64,000 nucleotides of DNA from Ruoffia tabacinasalis (GCF_005864045.1 NZ_VBSP01000001.1:1-64000), one strand, 5' to 3'; positions 51,738 to 63,060 are shown, counted from the stretch's first letter. Translations and numbers: made by a program. Notes: generated by a model not told the origin, from the letters alone.

Positions 51738-52394
51738 TTATTGGTGGAAAAACCTTTTATTTCGAGAGACAAAAGACTCTATACCACCTAAACGAATTCT
51801 AAAACGATCGTCTTTGTTTAATAAGATTTGCTCTGCCCAATATAAATTATGGTCTACTACAAAAGAGGGCACACCAAAGTTCGAATGCTGCGTTAAAACT
51901 GAATTGAATTCAGAACGGTGTTGATTTAAATTAATTAAACCTTCTCGGAATGATTCGACGGTTCCACTTGAATCTTGATTCATAATTGTTGGATTGGCAC
52001 AAGCGTCACCGAGAATTGCAGTCTTAAGTTCAGGCATAAGAAACCCCATAATCCCTGAAGTATGACTTGGTAAGTGTATGGGAATGATAGTGACTCCCAT
52101 AAGTTAAACTCATCGTATTCTTTATAAGAATGATAATTTATTTCTTTTTGAGCAATAAAGTGTTCCGATGTGAAAGATAAGCCTTGCTTTCGCATGATCT
52201 AGATGACCTTGTGTGCAGATGACATCATATGGCATATCAAGTAAGTTATCAACATCTTGCCTCAAATCCCCATATCTAAAACCAGTATTAATCAAAACGA
52301 CTCTGTCACACCCATTGACAACATAAGCACAGACGTAAGGCATTTTAATACGGATTATGGCGTCGTTAATTTGTTCGCTTTCAAATAACTTTAT
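51738..52394 (-). pseudogene. Decayed MBL-fold hydrolase, paralogue of 59585-60394
   Basis: Pieces in shifting frames match the intact paralogue: LFESEQINDAIIRIKMPYVCAY, GYGDLRQDV-like, PYDVICTQGHLDHA, then a deletion of roughly 45 codons, INYHSYKEYDEFNL, a frameshift, and GVTIIPIHLPSHTSGIMGF to SFVSRNKRFFHQ. The first metal His is lost (TQGHLDH for SHGHPDH). The start, ATG in the intact copy, reads ATA here (52392-52394). Clearly not functional. Confidence 0.88.
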
Positions 52395-52557: not shown

Positions 52558-52971
52558 GTGAATCATTTGTTAATACATCAGCCTAAATTATGGAGTGTAA
52601 TACTCCGTTTATTGTTAACCGCGGTTGGTCAAGTTAGCCTAATTTATTTATGGATGTTGATTCCAGGTCAAGAGGCCATTGCTTATTTCTTACTCTTAAT
52701 TTTAATGTCAGCCCCCGTGGGAACAATAATTAATCTCATGTTAAAGAAATGGATTTTTCAGTTAATGAATTATTCAGATTCATTTGCTTTAAAAATAGCG
52801 TACCCCTTTATAATTATTATTGGTCTATTTATCACTGTTATTGTCATAACAAACTTGAACATTTTTGATTTATTCTTTCTTTTGATTTTTGTCTTTGTAT
52901 TGTCGCTACCATTATTATTACTTGAAATGCTATTTTATATAATAAGAAATTGGACTCAATTAAAAGAGTAG
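52558..52971 (+). CDS. Small four-helix membrane protein (paralogue of 60556-60972)
   Basis: 137 aa, about four membrane helices, no known family. N-terminal RLLLTAVGQVSLIYLWMLIPGQEA and C-terminal LSLPLLLLEMLFYIIRN are shared with the copy at 60556. A third relative lies at 61370. GTG 52558 is taken as start; TTG 52567 is better spaced from AAGGA. It is intact although both neighbours in this copy of the block are broken. Confidence 0.6.
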   Translation: MNHLLIHQPKLWSVILRLLLTAVGQVSLIYLWMLIPGQEAIAYFLLLILMSAPVGTIINLMLKKWIFQLMNYSDSFALKIAYPFIIIIGLFITVIVITNLNIFDLFFLLIFVFVLSLPLLLLEMLFYIIRNWTQLKE

Positions 52972-53144: not shown

Positions 53145-53545
53145 TAAAGGGTAAGCAGTTAAAAGTGAGAAAAGCTAAAAAATAAAACATCATTTTATTT
53201 TTCATATTCCGTTTAGAAAGCATGAGTTAGCGACCATAAACGTTGGCTTTAATAATTTAGTATTTATTATAGTTTTTCAATTCTCATTGGCACTTCATCT
53301 AAGTAACGAAATGATTTTTACATTTCATACAATCCTTTAATGAAATGCCCGCTGTTATTTTTTTACTTTTAAAGGTACGTACATTCAGGTTTTGTAAAGG
53401 ACGTGTTATTTGTTATCAACCAATAGACGATTACAAGTAGAAGTAAGTTTACATATCTAGGTACTCAATATTTCTTGACAAGCAGAAAACTTTGGCTTAT
53501 TCTTAAGCGAGAATAAATGATTAATACAATTAAATAGCGATTCCA
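53145..53545. other. 401-nt gene-free stretch
   Basis: AT-rich. A short GATAAAGGGTAAG near 53140-53155 may be a leftover of the deleted ArsC-like 3' part. TTGACA (about 53472-53477) could be the -35 box for the riboswitch operon. No ORF or clear repeat seen. Confidence 0.45.
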
Positions 53546-53636
53546 TGTAGGGGGACCAGTGTTGCTGGTTGAGATATTATCCGTGAAGATAATGACCCTT
53601 AGAACCTGATCTAGTTGACACTAGCGTAGGGAACAT
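53546..53636 (+). ncRNA. TPP (THI-box) riboswitch
   Basis: All conserved blocks are present in order: GTAGGGGGACCAG, GCTGGTTGAGA (CTGAGA variant), ATGACCCTTAGAACCTGATC, then CTAGTTGACACTAGCGTAGGGAA. This is the thi-box consensus: P2/P4 CUGAGA and ACCCUU-x-GAACCUGAUC, P5 ending in GCGUAGGGAA. It binds thiamine pyrophosphate and should lower expression of the downstream operon when TPP is high. Confidence 0.97.
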
Positions 53637-53674
53637 ATAACGATTATGAAGAACAGTAATAATAATACGTATGT

Positions 53675-53706
53675 GCACCCTAGAATCAGTCTAGGGTGCT
53701 TTTTTT
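53675..53706 (+). terminator. Terminator of the TPP riboswitch
   Basis: Stem GCACCCTAG / CTAGGGTGC, 7-nt loop, T7. It lies 39 nt after the aptamer and 28 nt before the first ORF. Confidence 0.92.
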
Positions 53707-53734
53707 GTGTCAATATTAAGGAGAAAGAGAAAAT

Positions 53735-54784
53735 ATGAAAACAATAATCCAAGAATTTATTTGTAATCCAGAAGAGTATAAAAGTTTCGATGAAGTAGCC
53801 ATACAATTGTTCAGGTATCTTTACCAAAATAATCTGGCATATCAACAATATTGTCGAAAAAAAGGGATCGGTCTTAAGCAAGTTAGACATTGGAAGGACA
53901 TTCCAAGTGTATCGACAGAGGCATTTAAGTCCAGCTTTTTAAGTGTAACTCCTGAAGAGGAATGCTCATATGTTTTTATGACGAGTGGAACTACGAGTGG
54001 CAATAAAGGAAAGCATTATCACCGTGATCTTGACGTCTATGATCTATCAGCGAAAGAAAGTTTTAAAAATTTGGTAAGTGCAAAGAAATATCCCATGGCA
54101 ATTTTATTTCCAGATGAAAAAAATATGCCTCATTCTTCTTTAAGCCATTATTTATCGCTATTAAAAGCTGATGGAACGAAAGATTCCGCACATTTTGTGT
54201 CAAAAGATGGGTTAGAGTTAGAAAAATTGATTGAATGGACTCAAAAACATGAGCATACGCCCGTAATGATTTTGGGTGCGAGTTACAATTATGTTCATTT
54301 ACTTGATAGTTTAGAAGACAAAAATAAATCGATTCATTTGCATGAGGATAGCTTAATTTTTGATACAGGTGGATTTAAGAATTTCTCAAGGTCTTATTCA
54401 GAAAATGATTTCTATAAATTATTAAAAGATAGGTTTAAAGTCAAGACAAAAATAGTAAATATGTATGGGATGACAGAATTATCTTCGCAATACTATTCGA
54501 AGATTGAATTGGGTGGAAAGAATATAAAGCGAGGACCACATTGGATTCGTTTTAAAATTATTGATCCAATCACTGAGCAAGAAGTTCCTAAAGGAGAAAT
54601 TGGCTTATTAGTACATGTTGATTTAGCCAATATCAACTCTGTACCAGCTATTCAAACAGGGGACTTAGCTATTGAAAGAGAGGGTGGCTTTGAATTAGTA
54701 GGAAGGCAACCATTGATTGAATCACGAGGTTGTTCATTATCTGCGCAACAATGGATAGAGGAGTATCAAAATGGTTCAAATTGA
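53735..54784 (+). CDS. LuxE-family acyl-protein synthetase
   Basis: 349 aa, usual for LuxE (about 370). Adenylating-enzyme motifs: SYVFMTSGTTSGNKGKHYH (P-loop-like), SLIFDTGGFKNFSRSYS, VNMYGMTELSSQYYS, LVHVDLANINSVPAIQTGDLA and the end ESRGCSLSAQQWIEE. LuxE activates a carboxylic acid with ATP and transfers the acyl group to a Cys for reduction by LuxC. No luxAB or luxD are present, so light emission is not the role. First gene behind the TPP riboswitch; overlaps the LuxC-type gene by 14 nt. Confidence 0.92.
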   Translation: MKTIIQEFICNPEEYKSFDEVAIQLFRYLYQNNLAYQQYCRKKGIGLKQVRHWKDIPSVSTEAFKSSFLSVTPEEECSYVFMTSGTTSGNKGKHYHRDLDVYDLSAKESFKNLVSAKKYPMAILFPDEKNMPHSSLSHYLSLLKADGTKDSAHFVSKDGLELEKLIEWTQKHEHTPVMILGASYNYVHLLDSLEDKNKSIHLHEDSLIFDTGGFKNFSRSYSENDFYKLLKDRFKVKTKIVNMYGMTELSSQYYSKIELGGKNIKRGPHWIRFKIIDPITEQEVPKGEIGLLVHVDLANINSVPAIQTGDLAIEREGGFELVGRQPLIESRGCSLSAQQWIEEYQNGSN

Positions 54785-56192
54785 AAAAAGTGGTTATTTA
54801 CCACCGATGGCAAAAGATTTAAAGATTAAGAATCGACAGATTGATTTTCAGGATGTATCAATTTCAGTGCCACATCCTGATGAAGATCAATTGAAAATTT
54901 TATCACAGCGAATGAAAACGGTAGGAAATCACTTGACTACAAATGAAATTATCACAGCAATTACTAAGGCGGTCGCAGTGTTATTAGATCGAAAACATCC
55001 TTTACGTCGTAAACTAGAAAAACTTCTGCCACTAATTACTGGCTTTAATCACGAAACGATTCGATTAAGTCTGACTCATTCACTGAAGACTTTTAGAGAA
55101 CATGAATTGATGCGTTGGTTATCTGTGAATTTTGAAAATCCTCTAATCCTTGATCAATTTATAGCAAGTTCTCATGGGGGATTTACCAAGGCTGTTGGAC
55201 CAAAATTAACGGCACATATTTGGGCAGGGAATGTACCAGTTCTACCTCTTTGGAGTTTAGTAGGAAGTCTATTAGTTAAAGGAAAAGTGATTGGAAAAGT
55301 TTCTAGTAGCGAACCTTTATTTATTGGTGTTTTCTGTCAATTATTGGTTGAAATTGAGCCTCGATTAGCAGATAGTCTTGCGATTGTTTCTTGGAAGGGG
55401 GGAGATACCGGTCGTGAAAAGATGTTATTGAATGAAGCTGAAGTAGTAGTTGGATATGGTAGTAATCGGACTATATCCAAACTGCAGCAACAAATAGGTC
55501 ACAATACACATTTCATTGGTTTTGGTAATAAATTAAGTTTTGGTTTTCTACACAAGCTAGTTTTAGATAAGCAAAAAGCAGAAAACTTGGCTAAACAAGC
55601 TGCAAAGTCAGTGATTTACTACGATCAGCAAGGGTGTTATTCTCCCCAACTCTTTTTCGTAGAAAAGAATGGACAAACAAGTCCGCATGAATGGGCATTA
55701 CTATTAGCAGGCAAACTTCAATCTTATCAGAATCGTTATCCTTTAAGAAATTTATCAATTGAAGAAGCATATGATCGCTCAAAATTTTATGAATCAAAAA
55801 TGTGGGACGATCATTGTAAAGTAATTGTCCCTGAGGATCGCTCCTGGATAGTAAGCTACAGTGAGAAGCCTTTTCTTGAACCAACTCCCTTATCACGGGT
55901 GGTACAAGTTATTGCTATTGATCATTGGAAAAGTTTAGCAGAAATCATTCGTGACAAGTCGCAAGTCCTTCAAACAGTAGGAATCGCTGCGCCGACGGAT
56001 GAATTATTTGACATTGCTTCCGATTGGGGAGCTTTAGGCATTACGCGCGTAACTAGCTTGGATAAAATGGTACAGTTACATGCCGGTTGGCATCAGGATG
56101 GTTATTCATTTCTGAAAGAACAGGTTCGGATGGTCGATATCGACCCTTCGGTTGTTTGTTCTTCAGAATTATTCAATTACTACATGGATTAG
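54771..56192 (+). CDS. LuxC-family acyl reductase
   Basis: 473 aa, aldehyde-dehydrogenase fold. HGGFTKAVGPKLTAHIWAGNVPVLPLWSLV and VVVGYGSNRTISKLQ are LuxC-type NADPH-site regions (quoted in part). The catalytic Cys is in IYYDQQGCYSPQLFFVEK. It reduces an activated acyl group to the aldehyde. Together with the LuxE-type protein it forms a carboxylate-to-aldehyde module, here under thiamine control. Confidence 0.9.
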   Translation: MVQIEKSGYLPPMAKDLKIKNRQIDFQDVSISVPHPDEDQLKILSQRMKTVGNHLTTNEIITAITKAVAVLLDRKHPLRRKLEKLLPLITGFNHETIRLSLTHSLKTFREHELMRWLSVNFENPLILDQFIASSHGGFTKAVGPKLTAHIWAGNVPVLPLWSLVGSLLVKGKVIGKVSSSEPLFIGVFCQLLVEIEPRLADSLAIVSWKGGDTGREKMLLNEAEVVVGYGSNRTISKLQQQIGHNTHFIGFGNKLSFGFLHKLVLDKQKAENLAKQAAKSVIYYDQQGCYSPQLFFVEKNGQTSPHEWALLLAGKLQSYQNRYPLRNLSIEEAYDRSKFYESKMWDDHCKVIVPEDRSWIVSYSEKPFLEPTPLSRVVQVIAIDHWKSLAEIIRDKSQVLQTVGIAAPTDELFDIASDWGALGITRVTSLDKMVQLHAGWHQDGYSFLKEQVRMVDIDPSVVCSSELFNYYMD

Positions 56193-56205
56193 AGGGGGAC
56201 ATATC

Positions 56206-56949
56206 ATGGAATTAGAGCTACAAAAAGTCTCTTATCAGTATAAAAACCAAAATTTTACATTGAAAGGAATTGATTGGCAGCTACCAACGGGTGAGATTCA
56301 TTGCTGGTTGGGTCGTAGTGGGAGTGGTAAGTCAACCTTACTAGAGTTAGCAGCAGGGCTAAAAAATCCAACGAAAGGAAAAGTTTACCATCAAGGACAC
56401 ATAGTTACAAAGCCATCGAATAAGATTGGCTTTGTATTTCAAGAGGCTACTTTACTCAATTGGAAGACAGTTTTAGAAAATGTATTGTTGCCGATTCAAT
56501 TACAACGCGAAATTACGGCAGAAGATATTAATTATGCAGAAGTATTATTAGAGATTCTTCAAATATCAGAATTTGCGGAGCGAATACCATCTACTTTATC
56601 TGGCGGACAAAAAAGTCGAGTAGCGATAGCAAGAGCATTAATTAAGAAACCCACACTTCTTTTTCTAGACGAACCATTCGCTGCTTTGGATATCATAACA
56701 AGAGAGGAGTTACAAAATGAATTATTGAGATTAAATAAAAGAGAAAAGATCGCGATGCTTTTTGTTACCCATGATGTAACTGAAGCTGCTTTTTTGGCAG
56801 ATCAAATTGGGGTGATTAGTCAGGGTGAAATGAGTTCTCAAAAAAAATCTCCATCTTGGGAAGAGACAGAGATCAATCGGCGAGATTCTCAAACATTTAG
56901 AGAATATTGTAGAACTATTCGTCAATTGTTAGGGGTGGAACATGAATAA
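56206..56949 (+). CDS. ABC transporter ATPase (NitT/TauT/ThiZ-like)
   Basis: 247 aa from ATG 56206 behind GAGGGGGAC. Walker A LGRSGSGKST, Q-loop GFVFQEATLLNW, signature LSGGQKSRVAIARAL, Walker B LLFLDEPFAALDI and the switch His in FVTHDV. The FQEATLL-NW pattern is typical of SsuB/TauB/ThiZ importers. Overlaps the permease by 8 nt. Confidence 0.9.
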   Translation: MELELQKVSYQYKNQNFTLKGIDWQLPTGEIHCWLGRSGSGKSTLLELAAGLKNPTKGKVYHQGHIVTKPSNKIGFVFQEATLLNWKTVLENVLLPIQLQREITAEDINYAEVLLEILQISEFAERIPSTLSGGQKSRVAIARALIKKPTLLFLDEPFAALDIITREELQNELLRLNKREKIAMLFVTHDVTEAAFLADQIGVISQGEMSSQKKSPSWEETEINRRDSQTFREYCRTIRQLLGVEHE

Positions 56950-57703
56950 GAGAGCTTCGCTACTATCACTGTTAATGGGTGTGTTGTTATTATTCATCTG
57001 GGAATTGAGTGCTCAACAGGTATCTGAGCTGATTTTACCACGCCCACTTGCTGTTTTTTCCGTCCTTTGGAAAGGGATTCTCGATGGCTATTTTCTCCCT
57101 CATATATTGACTACAGTCGTTGAACTAATCATTGGATTACTAATGGGTGGATTTTTGGGGGTATTACTAGGAATCATCATCGGGGAAAGCCCGTTTTTGA
57201 AAAATGTATTTTCTGTGTATATCGTCATTTCACAAGCTATTCCTAAAATCGCTTTGGCTCCATTATTCATGTTGTGGTTTGGATATGGTATGATGTCGAA
57301 AATTGTTATTACTGCTTTGATTTGCTTTTTTCCATTATTAGAAGCAACTGCCAGTGCGATTCAACATGTTAACTCAGATCAATTAACTTTGTTTCGTTTG
57401 ATGAATGCCTCGCGATGGCAAACATTATGGTATCTAAAGTTTCCAGCTGGTTTGCCTACGATTGTTCAAGGACTTCGTGTTGCTGTAGTTCTCTCACTAG
57501 TAGGTGCTTTAGTGGGGGAGTTTATAGGCGCAAAACAAGGGCTAGGTGCATTGATTATTGCATCACAAGGAATGATGGATACAACTTTAATGTTTGCTGT
57601 TCTGATTCTATTAGCAATATTAGGCTGTATACTATATGGATTAGTTAATATTCTGGAAAATCTATTATGGTATAGCAAGGAGAATAAAAATGAGAAAAAT
57701 TAA
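56942..57703 (+). CDS. ABC transporter permease (NitT/TauT/ThiX-like)
   Basis: 253 aa, about six membrane helices. Family loop: FRLMNASRWQTLWYLKFPAGLPTIVQGLRV, then SLVGALVGEFIGAKQGLGALI (both shown in part), as in SsuC/ThiX. Overlaps the binding-protein gene by 14 nt. Confidence 0.9.
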   Translation: MNKRASLLSLLMGVLLLFIWELSAQQVSELILPRPLAVFSVLWKGILDGYFLPHILTTVVELIIGLLMGGFLGVLLGIIIGESPFLKNVFSVYIVISQAIPKIALAPLFMLWFGYGMMSKIVITALICFFPLLEATASAIQHVNSDQLTLFRLMNASRWQTLWYLKFPAGLPTIVQGLRVAVVLSLVGALVGEFIGAKQGLGALIIASQGMMDTTLMFAVLILLAILGCILYGLVNILENLLWYSKENKNEKN

Positions 57704-58646
57704 AATAGGGCTAGTGTTAATATTTATAGCAGTGTTAAGTGCTTGCAGTTTTCAAACGACGAATTCATTGACAATAGCCAATTGGAGTCAATTAATTGTT
57801 GAACAGACGAATTTATTGGCAGAAGAGGAACATGGATTCTTTAAAGAAGCTGGTATAGACTTGTCGATTATTCCGGGAAATGGCGGACAAGATGCGTTAA
57901 AAAATATGTTAACAGGACAAGCTGATATCGCATTCACCGATCCTGGTGCAGTTTATAGTGCTCTCGCTAATGGCGAAGATTTAGTTATTTTATATACGGT
58001 ATATCCACAAAATGTTTTTAATGTAGTTACGATGGATAATCATATTCAATCTCCAAAAGATTTGAAAGGAAAAACCATTGGTATATATAGTCGGTCAAGT
58101 GGAACATATCAAAATTTATTAGTATTATTGCATCAAGCAGGTTTATCAGAATCAGATGTAGAATTATTAGATGTAGGTATTGCTAATTTTTCACCGTTGA
58201 TTCAGGGACAAGTGGATGCAACAGCCGCAACCGATACAGCCTTAGTTCCGGCCATAAGGGCGGGTTTAAGTGCTCCAAATATTTTTGAAGTGCGAGACTC
58301 TTTGAATATACCGAGTGATTTTTTCGTAGTAAAACGATCAACCTACGAAGAAAAAGAAGCGCTGTTAAGGGATTTCATTCTCGCCTATAAAAAAAGTGCC
58401 CAATGGATGATTGGAAATCCAGATAGAGCAGCAGAATTAGCCGTAGAGTTAGCCATTGATGGGCGTGATCCAGAAATTAACCGAGAAATTATCAATTTAA
58501 GAAATACTGCGAGTTTAGATGAGAATGGTCAGATAGGTAAAGTGGATATTGATGTCATCCAGGAAGGTGCCGATACATATTTTGAATTAGGTCTCATTCC
58601 AAAAAAATTAGAAATGAGCCAGTACATTGAAGCAATTGAGGAGTGA
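57690..58646 (+). CDS. NMT1/THI5-like substrate-binding lipoprotein
   Basis: 318 aa. Signal peptide with lipobox LSAC (Cys about 20), so anchored to the membrane outside. NMT1/THI5 fold: AEEEHGFFKEAGIDLSIIPG, GQDALKNMLTGQADIAFTDP, LKGKTIGIYSRSSGTYQNLL and GQVDATAATDTALVPAI. ThiY-type members bind pyrimidine precursors of thiamine; SsuA-type bind sulfonates. Position behind a TPP riboswitch favours a thiamine-related ligand. Confidence 0.9.
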   Translation: MRKIKIGLVLIFIAVLSACSFQTTNSLTIANWSQLIVEQTNLLAEEEHGFFKEAGIDLSIIPGNGGQDALKNMLTGQADIAFTDPGAVYSALANGEDLVILYTVYPQNVFNVVTMDNHIQSPKDLKGKTIGIYSRSSGTYQNLLVLLHQAGLSESDVELLDVGIANFSPLIQGQVDATAATDTALVPAIRAGLSAPNIFEVRDSLNIPSDFFVVKRSTYEEKEALLRDFILAYKKSAQWMIGNPDRAAELAVELAIDGRDPEINREIINLRNTASLDENGQIGKVDIDVIQEGADTYFELGLIPKKLEMSQYIEAIEE

Positions 58647-58650
58647 AGAT

Positions 58651-59415
58651 ATGCTAGAAGGTAAAGTGGTTATCGTTAGTGGTTCAAGTCGTGGAATTGG
58701 TGCAACCTTGGCTAAAGGCTTCGCTAGTCAGGGTGCTTATGTGGTTGTTAATTATAATCATAGCAAGGAATCAGCCGAAGAAGTGGCAAGAGCATGTGAA
58801 AAATTAGGTGGCCAGTCAATAGTTATTAAAGCAGATGTAACCACAGAAGAAGGTGTGAATCATTTAGTAGAAGAGACGCTACTGACATTTGGAAGAATCG
58901 ATGTGTTGGTTAATAATGTATTTGCACCCTATATATTCGATGCAGAAAATCGAAAAAAGGCATGGGAAATGGAGTGGCAAGATTATGAGATACAATTACA
59001 AGGAGGATTAAAAGCTGCACACTTATTGGTGCAAAAAGTATTGCCAAACATGACAAACTTTGGGAAGGGAAGTATTATCAATATTACTTCCAATTTAGTG
59101 GAACATCCAGTTATACCATATCAGGATTATACGACGGCTAAAGCAGCAATCATTGGTTACACAAGAAGTATGGCAAAAGATCTAGGTAGTATAGGTATTC
59201 GGATGAATGCTGTTGCACCCGGGCTAGTTTATCCAACCGCAGCAACTAAATCAACCAAAGAAGAACAAAAAGAAACGATAGCAGATGCTACTCCACTGGG
59301 AAGAATTGCAACACCTGAGGATATTGTGGGGCCAGTTTTATTTTTAGCTTCTGATTGGAGCGGCTTTATGACAGGACAGACACTTTATGTTGATGGTGGT
59401 TTAGTTACGAGATAA
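58651..59415 (+). CDS. Short-chain dehydrogenase/reductase
   Basis: 254 aa from ATG 58651 behind GAGGAGTG. NAD(P) motif VSGSSRGIGATLAKGF, NNVFAPY for the usual NNAG, catalytic Ser in NITSN and Tyr-x-x-x-Lys in YTTAKAA, then the SDR end FMTGQTLYVDGGLV. FabG-like. In this operon it could reduce the aldehyde made by the LuxC-type enzyme to an alcohol. Last gene of the operon. Confidence 0.88.
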   Translation: MLEGKVVIVSGSSRGIGATLAKGFASQGAYVVVNYNHSKESAEEVARACEKLGGQSIVIKADVTTEEGVNHLVEETLLTFGRIDVLVNNVFAPYIFDAENRKKAWEMEWQDYEIQLQGGLKAAHLLVQKVLPNMTNFGKGSIINITSNLVEHPVIPYQDYTTAKAAIIGYTRSMAKDLGSIGIRMNAVAPGLVYPTAATKSTKEEQKETIADATPLGRIATPEDIVGPVLFLASDWSGFMTGQTLYVDGGLVTR

Positions 59416-59584: not shown

Positions 59585-60394
59585 TTAAAGACTTTGAGAA
59601 GTATAGACTAGATTCCCGGCATTCCCTCTGTAATGAGAGGTATTTCGGTTTCTAGCGACAAAAGACTCTTTACCTGACATTCTAACAGCTAAGCGATCAT
59701 CAGAATTTAATATGATGCGTTCAGCCCAATACAAGTTATCTTTAACGACGTCAAGCGGTTCCGAAAACGAATTGTGTTGAGTTAGAACAACTCTAAAGTT
59801 TTTCTGTAATTTACTTAATTTCACTAAAGCATCACGATATTCTTGAATGGAAGCACTCGATTCTAAATTTAATAATGTTGGATTCGCACAAGCATCACCA
59901 AGCATTGCGACTTCTAATTCGGGGATGATAAAACCCATGATTCCCTTTGTATGACCTGGCAAGTGGACAGGGCGGATTGTTACGCCACCTAAATCAAATT
60001 CATCCTTTTCATTATATGAGATGTATTTCACGTCACCTTTCGGTAAGAAATTCTCTTTAGGGAATGATTTGTTAAAGCGACGCAACACGTTATTCATAGT
60101 TGAATGTCTTGTTTCAATCTTTGTTCCGTGCTTTACTAACTCAAATTCACCTTCTGGTAAGTACACAGTATCATATTGTCCATTACCGCCAGCATGATCG
60201 GGATGACCGTGACTACAGATGACATCATAAGGTAGATCAATTAATTCATCTACCACGGACTTTAAGTCTCCATAACCAAAACCAGTATCGATTAAAACAG
60301 CTCGCTCTGATCCTTTGACGATATACGAACATACATAAGGCATCTTGATTCGAGTAATTCCCGGAATTACCGGTTCTACTTTAAATAATTCCAT
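59585..60394 (-). CDS. MBL-fold metallohydrolase
   Basis: 269 aa. Metal motif VICSHGHPDHAGGNGQYD; other ligand positions HLPGHTKGIMGF, MLGDACANP and VVLTQHNSF. N-terminal YIVKGSERAVLIDTGFGYGD is typical of the class that includes glyoxalase II-like and lactonase-like enzymes. It is the intact partner of the decayed copy at 51738-52394. It is divergently placed from a small membrane protein and an ArsC-like gene, as in the other copy. Confidence 0.88.
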   Translation of the reverse strand: MELFKVEPVIPGITRIKMPYVCSYIVKGSERAVLIDTGFGYGDLKSVVDELIDLPYDVICSHGHPDHAGGNGQYDTVYLPEGEFELVKHGTKIETRHSTMNNVLRRFNKSFPKENFLPKGDVKYISYNEKDEFDLGGVTIRPVHLPGHTKGIMGFIIPELEVAMLGDACANPTLLNLESSASIQEYRDALVKLSKLQKNFRVVLTQHNSFSEPLDVVKDNLYWAERIILNSDDRLAVRMSGKESFVARNRNTSHYRGNAGNLVYTSQSL

Positions 60395-60555: not shown

Positions 60556-60972
60556 ATGCCAGAAAATTGGTTAAGACGAATGTTAACTCGCTTATTACTA
60601 ACAGGAATTGGTCAAATTTTATTAATTCCGCTATGGATGCAGTTTCCTGGACAAGAAGCAGCTGGTTTTCTATTCCTTCTGATACTATTTGCGATTCCAG
60701 TTGGGACGATTTCAAATTGGGTAATAAAAGTGCTGATAATCAACGTAATAGGGCACACTCAGTCTAAATTAATAAAAAGTATCATTCCATTCATAATAAT
60801 TGCAATCATAACTTATGTTTTATACTTATTGTTGCTTGTTTCAACCCATAATTTAATATACATTACCACTTTATACGCAATCTTGTCTTTACCTTTACTA
60901 TTGTTAGAAATGATGATAATTGTGTTTAAACTGAACAAGGGCAACAGAGATGGTAACAAACGAAATATTTAA
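60556..60972 (+). CDS. Small four-helix membrane protein
   Basis: 138 aa, about four membrane helices; family unknown to me. RLLLTGIGQILLIPLWMQFP near the N-terminus and ILSLPLLLLEMMII near the C-terminus are shared with 52558-52971 and, more weakly, 61370-61765. A basic tail (KLNKGNRDGNKRN) suggests a cytosolic C-terminus. Excellent GAGGAGGAGAG site. The ArsC-like gene follows after 14 nt. Confidence 0.75.
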   Translation: MPENWLRRMLTRLLLTGIGQILLIPLWMQFPGQEAAGFLFLLILFAIPVGTISNWVIKVLIINVIGHTQSKLIKSIIPFIIIAIITYVLYLLLLVSTHNLIYITTLYAILSLPLLLLEMMIIVFKLNKGNRDGNKRNI

Positions 60973-61349: not shown

Positions 61350-61369
61350 GTCAAACATAAGAGGTGCCT

Positions 61370-61765
61370 ATGAAAACAATATCTATCTTAAAACAATTTA
61401 TATTCCGTTTAATACTCACAGGTCTTGGACAGTATGCTATCATTGAGGGAATTAGAGCGATTGATTCCTCGAATTCGATTATTGAGTTGATTCCGATGAT
61501 TCCTTTCACAGCATTTTTTTCAACACTTATAAATACGGCTATATATCATTTTATTGTCTACGCCGTTAATAGATTAACGCGTTTTAGTCAAAAGTTGATC
61601 GTAACGCTTTCTATCATCTTAGGGTTGCTTTTATTATCAATTGTCCTCTTTATTTTCTCGGATAGTTTCTTAGGGTCTTTCTCAGCTTACTTGTTCTTTT
61701 ATACTTTGCCATTTCTAATAATTGAAACGCTATTATACTTTATTCGAAATCGAAAGATTTTATAA
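61370..61765 (+). CDS. Third relative of the small four-helix membrane protein family
   Basis: 131 aa from ATG 61370 behind AAGAGGTG. About four membrane helices, with FRLILTGLGQYAIIEGIRAI near the start and LPFLIIETLLYFIRN at the end, the same pattern as the other two copies. 20 nt after the ArsC-like gene, so in one operon with it. Function unknown. Confidence 0.7.
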   Translation: MKTISILKQFIFRLILTGLGQYAIIEGIRAIDSSNSIIELIPMIPFTAFFSTLINTAIYHFIVYAVNRLTRFSQKLIVTLSIILGLLLLSIVLFIFSDSFLGSFSAYLFFYTLPFLIIETLLYFIRNRKIL

Positions 61766-61887: not shown

Positions 61888-61904
61888 GAATATTAAACAC
61901 CTTG

Positions 61905-62167
61905 ATAAGAAAAGTATATTTATTCATAATTTATAGAGAGCCTCGTAAGCTGGAAAAAGGTAATTATGATAGATAGAAAATGGTCTTTGAGTGGATATAT
62001 CGAAAGTAGAGCTTAAGATATATACGTCGGCACCCGTTACAGTGTCTCAGTAAATCAATGAATTGTTTACTGAATAAGACAATGAGTTCATCGCTCTTGT
62101 AAATGAAGGTGGTACCACGTGAATGAATATTCTCGTCCTTGCGTAATTTATTACGCAGGGATTTTTT
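61905..62167 (+). ncRNA. T-box leader, methionine specifier
   Basis: Stem I distal part AGAGAGCCTCGTAAGCTGGAAAAAGG (from about 61935, shown in parts). The specifier region is GAAA-ATG-GTCTTTGAG with ATG at 61980-61982. The antiterminator T-box AAGGTGGTACCACG is at 62106-62119. Terminator stem TCCTTGCGTAA / TTACGCAGGGA and TTTTTT end at 62167. Uncharged tRNA-Met should open the downstream operon, linking it to methionine shortage. The 5' end is approximate. Confidence 0.92.
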
Positions 62168-62208
62168 AATGAAAAAATTTAAATTTATCTTATATGATGG
62201 AGGACAAT

Positions 62209-63060
62209 ATGAATAACAAACATTTAGTATTACAGACAGATTTTGGATTAGTGGATGGGGCAGTCTCAGCTATGCAAGGTGTAGCATACACAGTTGCACC
62301 AGAGGTTACAATCAGTAATTTAACACATGAAATTGAACCATATAATATTAACGATGCATCATACAGATTGTTACAAACAGTAGCATATTGGCCAGCCAAA
62401 ACAGTCTTTGTGTCTGTGGTTGATCCTGGTGTTGGGAGTAGCAGAAGAAGTGTTGTTGCTAAAACAACCGCTGGGCAGTATATTGTCACTCCAGATAATG
62501 GATCATTATCACACGTCGCAAAATTCGTTGGGTTAGAAAGCGTTAAAGAAATTAATGAAGAAGTTGACCGTCTACCACATTCTGAGAAAAGTCACACTTT
62601 CCACGGACGTGATGTTTATGTATATAATGGTGCAATGATTGCGGACAATGAATCATATTATGAAAATTTAAGTAAAGAGGTCAGTGTCGACTCAATTAAG
62701 ACTTTAGAAATCGCGGAACCTGAATTACGTGATGGTGTCATTCACGGTGTCATTGACATTCTAGATATTCGATTTGGATCTTTATGGACAAATATTCCAT
62801 TAGAACTCGTTGAAGAAGCTGGGATTCAAACGGGTGATAAAATCAGTGTACAAATTTTCCATGATGATATTAAAAAGTACGATAACCAATTATTATTCGG
62901 ACACAGCTTTGCTGATGTTGCAGTTGGTGAGACTGTAGGATATATTAACTCATTAATTCGTTTAGGTGTAGCAATTAACCAACAGAACTTCTCTCAAACA
63001 TATAATATCGGGACAGGGAAAGACTGGTTAATTCAAATTAAAAAAGTAAAAGGAGAATAG
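62209..63060 (+). CDS. SAM hydroxide adenosyltransferase (DUF62 family)
   Basis: 283 aa from ATG 62209 behind GGAGGACAAT. DUF62 motifs: [60 protein letters not shown] and [17 protein letters not shown]. The family hydrolyses S-adenosylmethionine to adenosine and methionine. Its place behind a methionine T-box with a methionine-type ECF transporter fits methionine recovery. Confidence 0.92.

Follow-up and report, generated by a model that had tools for sequence, protein, structure and literature searches.

The 64,000-nucleotide stretch of Ruoffia tabacinasalis DNA analyzed here (NZ_VBSP01000001.1:1-64000, hereafter the window) carries an operon at positions 53539-59415 in which a thiamine pyrophosphate (TPP) riboswitch aptamer and a terminator precede genes for LuxE-type and LuxC-type proteins, an ATP-binding cassette (ABC) importer, and a short-chain dehydrogenase/reductase (SDR). 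The features of the operon are as follows (ORF, open reading frame).

53475-53503, plus strand: promoter-like site TTGACA-17-TATTCT (consensus match only, 10/12)
53539-53649, plus strand: TPP riboswitch aptamer (RF00059; 73.7 bits, full model 1-105)
53675-53706, plus strand: predicted intrinsic terminator, expression platform (hairpin 53675-53699 with a 10-bp stem, then TTTTTTT)
53735-54784, plus strand: LuxE-type acyl-activating/acyl-transfer protein, 349 aa, C-terminal GCS cysteine C333 (ORF, PF04443, 7xc6)
54771-56192, plus strand: LuxC-type acyl reductase, 473 aa, YDQQGC cysteine C289 (ORF, PF05893, 7xc6)
56206-56949, plus strand: ABC transporter ATPase, possible upstream start at 56152 (ORF, ABC_tran)
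56942-57703, plus strand: ABC transporter permease, SsuC/TauC-like (ORF, BPD_transp_1)
57690-58646, plus strand: substrate-binding protein, NMT1/THI5-like, of a separate subfamily without the ThiY motif DWxPNTNHTG (PF09084)
58627-59415, plus strand: SDR with a TTG start (ATG at 58651 possible), YxxxK present (ORF, SDR)

Riboswitch and Enzymes of the Operon

The aptamer scores well above the Rfam gathering score of 54.3 bits (E 1.2e-12), and the operon shows both marks of membership in a TPP riboswitch regulon, namely an aptamer above that score directly upstream and a predicted terminator platform. On these elements, the operon is predicted to be a gene set that is shut off by vitamin B1. The preliminary description, made from the sequence alone, had already placed a riboswitch and terminator here, with a start at 53546 that is 7 bases late; its six tightly packed genes agree with the ORFs and Pfam domains, all six lying on one strand with neighbors that overlap or stand 13 bases apart. 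The Pfam scores are 80.8 bits for LuxE and 259 bits for LuxC, and comparison with the Protein Data Bank matches the two proteins to chains E and A of 7xc6, respectively.

The alignment with 7xc6 places the C-terminal GCS of the window LuxE on GCSLS of its counterpart, and YDQQGC of the window LuxC on YDQQAC. Both cysteines (C333 and C289) are invariant across 19 aligned members from Bacillota and Pseudomonadota, and their counterparts in Lux systems are the acyl-carrying residues. The SDR features a glycine-rich GSSRGIG as well as the YxxxK motif. Given these cysteines and motifs, a course from acid through acyl-AMP, thioester, and aldehyde to alcohol is expected from the families concerned. 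The acid-to-aldehyde chemistry proposed earlier for LuxE and LuxC has its sequence marks in place; the direction of the reactions, the cofactors, and the substrate are inferred.

The binding protein is less easily placed. Among NCBIfam models it matches that of the SsuA subfamily best, though with a score under the cut-off, and PF09084 alone does not prove a link to thiamine because the family also takes in binding proteins of the sulfonate type. At the position of ThiY's DWxPNTNHTG, the subfamily carries [NS]WS.....EQTNLL, a predicted pocket that fits a ligand other than N-formyl-4-amino-5-aminomethyl-2-methylpyrimidine (FAMP), without naming that ligand.

Conservation of the Riboswitch Linkage

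Relatives of the window LuxE were gathered from plasmid records, 76 Aerococcaceae genomes, 395 genomes of the order, 398 of the phylum, and two further families; genomes and loci are referred to below by G and L numbers. The subfamily was taken as loci at about 36% identity or more. A TPP aptamer lies on the same strand, 19-166 bases ahead of the first gene of the operon, in all 25 of its loci. All but one of these aptamers (24 of 25) score above the Rfam gathering score, with that of Priestia just below it (49.0 bits, E 1.2e-6). The loci come from Aerococcaceae, other Bacillota, Pantoea, Pseudomonas, Azospirillum, and lactobacillus plasmids, and thus from two phyla, and are not independent, since several belong to one genus and two lactobacillus plasmids hold the same cassette. 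Each has LuxE followed by LuxC, and then the SDR wherever the available flank is long enough. Two loci (Niallia and G064) have two TPP aptamers in tandem. A near-identical copy is in Ruoffia halotolerans, where the LuxE locus is 98% identical and is the sole match in the scan of genome contigs; the host genome itself is 2.52 Mb.

No TPP aptamer was found at any of the 10 outgroup LuxE/LuxC loci examined, which comprise a Priestia acyl-ligase cluster, six fusions of the radical S-adenosylmethionine (SAM) type, and loci of Deinococcus, Nonomuraea, and Novosphingobium. Because the linkage is kept in 25/25 related loci, it is not due to chance. The absence of a TPP riboswitch from related operons had been set beforehand as the observation that would count against the proposal, and the opposite was seen. 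As read from these sequences, the linkage is clean and spread over two phyla. Since the outgroup branches are very long in the LuxE tree, the TPP-linked set is not claimed to be a single clade.

Radical SAM-B12-LuxE fusions of other Bacillota were considered as relatives and were moved to the outgroups, as the riboswitch is missing from all of them and the GCS cysteine from those checked. These proteins (L036-L041, from G409, G529, G681, G495, G584, and G456) are about 940-1050 aa long with a LuxE-like C-terminal half; the acyl cysteine is missing in the three checked, and a TPP riboswitch is nearby in none. The remainder of the L036 protein consists of a B12-binding and a radical SAM domain. 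A further observation concerns a plasmid of Pseudomonas silvicola (L017 7010-10281), where LuxE-LuxC-SDR is frame-broken and in fragments and the TPP aptamer is intact.

Operon Variants and Thiamine Genes of the Carriers

LuxE, LuxC, and the SDR stay together across lineages, while the transporter differs. An ABC importer is present in the window and in G056, G005, G404, G549, G807, G801, G817, Priestia, and Azospirillum; the flank available for G840 is too short to assign an importer type. An NCS2 permease, closest to PbuX/xanthine permease, instead stands before LuxE in Niallia, on plasmids of Lactiplantibacillus plantarum and Levilactobacillus brevis, and in G813 and G821. In Niallia this permease is itself preceded by the thiazole importer ThiW, and in G064 the SDR is followed by ThiW and CytX, a putative transporter of 4-amino-5-hydroxymethyl-2-methylpyrimidine (HMP). 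The operons of Pantoea, G015, and G522 have no transporter alongside. In G522, genes reading as thiD, thiM, and thiE diverge behind a second TPP aptamer, and in G817 thiM, thiE, and thiD lie immediately upstream. G813 has NCS2, LuxE, LuxC, SDR, ThiS, ThiG, ThiH, and ThiF in this order, on the same strand and behind one riboswitch, so thiazole is made within the same gene row.

The NCS2-LuxE-LuxC-SDR cassettes of the two lactobacillus plasmids (L014 and L096), which are different plasmids from Korean sources, have identical protein accessions. This identity would be a sign of recent transfer.

In the Ruoffia host, ThiD, ThiE, ThiM, and ThiW follow a TPP aptamer that is weaker and, at 42.9 bits, stays below threshold. 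A second importer, of the ThiY type and with the ThiY form of the motif, lies together with a thiamine-binding protein behind another TPP aptamer. Profile searches, on which all gene absences reported here rest, found ThiC neither in the host nor in any of the 76 Aerococcaceae. The host therefore depends on an external source of pyrimidine and has a thiazole route of its own.

For ThiG, only matches above 300 bits to PF05690 were counted, as this profile gives many weak matches to related barrels. ThiC and ThiG are both lacking in G000, G056, G015, G064, G522, and G817. ThiG occurs without ThiC in G005, which also has ThiF, and in the incomplete G821. The reverse combination, ThiC without ThiG, was found in none of the carrier genomes, as compared with eight non-carriers in the family of G522, a family whose ThiC counts probably include the lower-scoring paralogues BzaA/BzaB. 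G005 also holds two separate thiF-thiG pairs (L065 and L066) without ThiC.

Proposed Pathway and Alternative Substrates

The best explanation overall, to which we give a probability of roughly 0.6, is that the operon is a TPP-repressed module for the reductive salvage of an oxidized thiamine fragment, with a pyrimidine carboxylate favored. At low TPP, the riboswitch would let transcription read through the terminator, and the ABC importer would take up a carboxylic acid. LuxE would activate the acid with ATP as acyl-AMP and load its own C-terminal cysteine; the acyl group would then move to the LuxC cysteine, where reduction with NADPH would release an aldehyde for the SDR to reduce to the alcohol. 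The likeliest acid would be 4-amino-2-methylpyrimidine-5-carboxylate, with HMP as the product. HMP would be phosphorylated by ThiD and joined by ThiE to thiazole phosphate, which would come from ThiM acting on thiazole imported by ThiW. The module very probably reduces some thiamine-derived acid, and the odds that this acid is 4-amino-2-methylpyrimidine-5-carboxylate in particular are about even. Import and two-step reduction of an oxidized part of thiamine had been put forward in the preliminary description, and that class of function is well supported by the 25/25 linkage, the enzyme marks, and the neighboring thiamine genes; what changes is the order of the acids, with the pyrimidine carboxylate now favored over the thiamine acetic and thiazole acetic acids that had been named first.

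The pyrimidine acid is favored because the alternative importers are of the nucleobase or HMP type, because two operons include ThiW, because the host lacks ThiC while possessing ThiD, ThiE, ThiM, and ThiW, and because of the thiSGHF row and the distribution of ThiC and ThiG among carriers. The acid itself, 4-amino-2-methyl-5-pyrimidinecarboxylic acid, is a urinary metabolite of thiamine, although no mention of this was found in the literature searched. Several observations weigh against this assignment. ThiC and ThiG occur together in six carriers (G404, G549, G840, G807, G801, and G813), so the module is not merely a substitute for pyrimidine synthesis. ThiM is present in 8/8 carriers tested for thiazole kinase, so a thiazole product would be usable too. 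The pocket motif of the binding protein differs from that of ThiY, and thiazole binding could be accommodated. NCS2 permeases also transport compounds other than pyrimidines, and the profile counts of the carriers are small and come from related genomes.

The main alternative, which we consider unlikely, is that the module reduces 4-methylthiazole-5-acetic acid to the thiazole alcohol, 5-(2-hydroxyethyl)-4-methylthiazole (HET), for phosphorylation by ThiM. This acid is a thiamine metabolite of mammals according to Matsuo and Suzuoki (1969), cited in PMC4515825; the chemistry would suit it equally well, and the kinase in every carrier tested and ThiW within two operons are in its favor. Against it stand the de novo thiazole synthesis in the G813 gene row, the nucleobase permeases that serve as the alternative importer, and the want of any ThiC-positive, ThiG-negative genome among the carriers. 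Direct reduction of thiamine acetic acid, in which the vitamin is intact except for its oxidized hydroxyethyl side chain, would dispense with further assembly, and this compound is a mammalian metabolite as well, for which PMC7575681 cites Amos and Neal (1970). It is nevertheless improbable as the substrate, since the operons adjoin genes for the two halves of the vitamin (thiD/thiM/thiE at L035 and L076, ThiW, CytX, and thiSGHF) and a nucleobase permease is unlikely as its carrier. Slightly less remote is a carboxylate that does not stem from thiamine breakdown and opens a new supply route to HMP or thiazole, or a different acid related to thiamine, for example the 2-carboxythiazole cHET. Nothing beyond the riboswitch link and the enzyme class is fixed, and cHET occurs naturally as a thiazole vitamer (PMC12236431, PMC10881298). 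However, decarboxylation rather than reduction would be expected of cHET, and the neighboring genes point to no other acid.

Ordinary fatty-acyl reduction of the bioluminescence or fatty alcohol type, with a coincidental TPP riboswitch, is suggested by the Pfam family names and by database labels such as long-chain fatty acid-CoA ligase and acyl-CoA reductase. This reading is very improbable in view of the TPP link at every subfamily locus and at 0/10 outgroup loci. Furthermore, the NCBIfam scores are far under the fatty-acid LuxE and LuxC cut-offs (74.9 vs 550 bits and 94.7 vs 750 bits), and the operon has neither LuxD nor an acyl carrier protein.

Significance of the Proposed Reductive Salvage Route

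Oxidized breakdown products of thiamine are known in animals, and we know of no bacterial salvage route assigned to them. Searches of the open literature (5.39 million papers), which leave subscription journals mostly outside and so are weak evidence of novelty, gave no description in which a TPP riboswitch accompanies LuxE/LuxC, an acyl-protein synthetase, or an acyl-CoA reductase, and none of salvage of thiamine acetic acid or a pyrimidine carboxylic acid; the earlier statement that no such pathway had been described is in line with this. The salvageable vitamers are given as HMP, 4-amino-5-aminomethyl-2-methylpyrimidine (AmMP), and FAMP for the pyrimidine, and HET and cHET for the thiazole (PMC10881298). 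Reductive salvage of vitamin B1 would be a new route built from known enzyme families. The operon thus probably represents a previously undescribed and horizontally spread form of B1 salvage by LuxE, LuxC, and SDR under TPP control, with interchangeable importers, found on small plasmids in some lactobacilli, and with the 5-carboxy pyrimidine as its likeliest acid. If so, some bacteria deemed B1 auxotrophs could live on oxidized fragments of the vitamin, and many genes labeled "long-chain fatty acid-CoA ligase" or "acyl-CoA reductase" would gain a role outside lipid and luminescence chemistry. The hypothesis yields a short list of substrates and is directly testable.

Surroundings of the Operon

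Copies of a metallo-beta-lactamase-fold hydrolase flank the operon on the minus strand, one truncated and one full (51738-52100 and 59585-60394). Close to each copy lie small membrane proteins that are all of a single kind (52558-52971, 60556-60972, and 61364-61765), and the copies look as if the operon sits within or beside a duplication. Further downstream, at 61893-63060, a T-box leader (101.9 bits) stands ahead of an ORF for a SAM hydroxide adenosyltransferase (PF01887).

Comparison With Known Systems

The fatty acid reductase of luminous bacteria (7xc6) has the same two partners, and it matches the window pair in the domains for activation and reduction as well as in the acyl-carrying cysteine of each protein. 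Unlike that system, the window operon has no luciferase, and it adds an SDR, TPP control, and an importer for a soluble substrate. Neither LuxE nor LuxC reaches the fatty-acid equivalog level, and a LuxD thioesterase or acyl carrier is absent among the six window genes and is not named in the annotated related operons.

ThiXYZ-TenA salvage, which turns FAMP into HMP, likewise combines a TPP-controlled ABC importer and an NMT1/THI5-like binding protein with enzymes that turn a damaged fragment into HMP, as those of the window module would do. The window module differs in that it would reduce an acid, and its binding protein does not have the ThiY signature near the N-terminus. Genes for a TenA/YlmB-like hydrolase are absent from the window operon, to which that search was confined within the host genome. 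ThiW-ThiM thiazole salvage and HMP uptake by CytX (NCS1) also depend on TPP-controlled import of thiamine halves, and these genes share operons with the module in some lineages, but those systems take alcohols that are ready for phosphorylation and involve no redox step.

Finally, the carboxylic acid reductases (A-PCP-R; adenylation, peptidyl carrier protein, and reductase domains) also reduce a carboxylate with ATP and NAD(P)H via acyl-AMP and a thioester. Whereas these are single proteins with a phosphopantetheine carrier, the window module would divide the same chemistry between two proteins that use cysteine thioesters and have no PCP domain.

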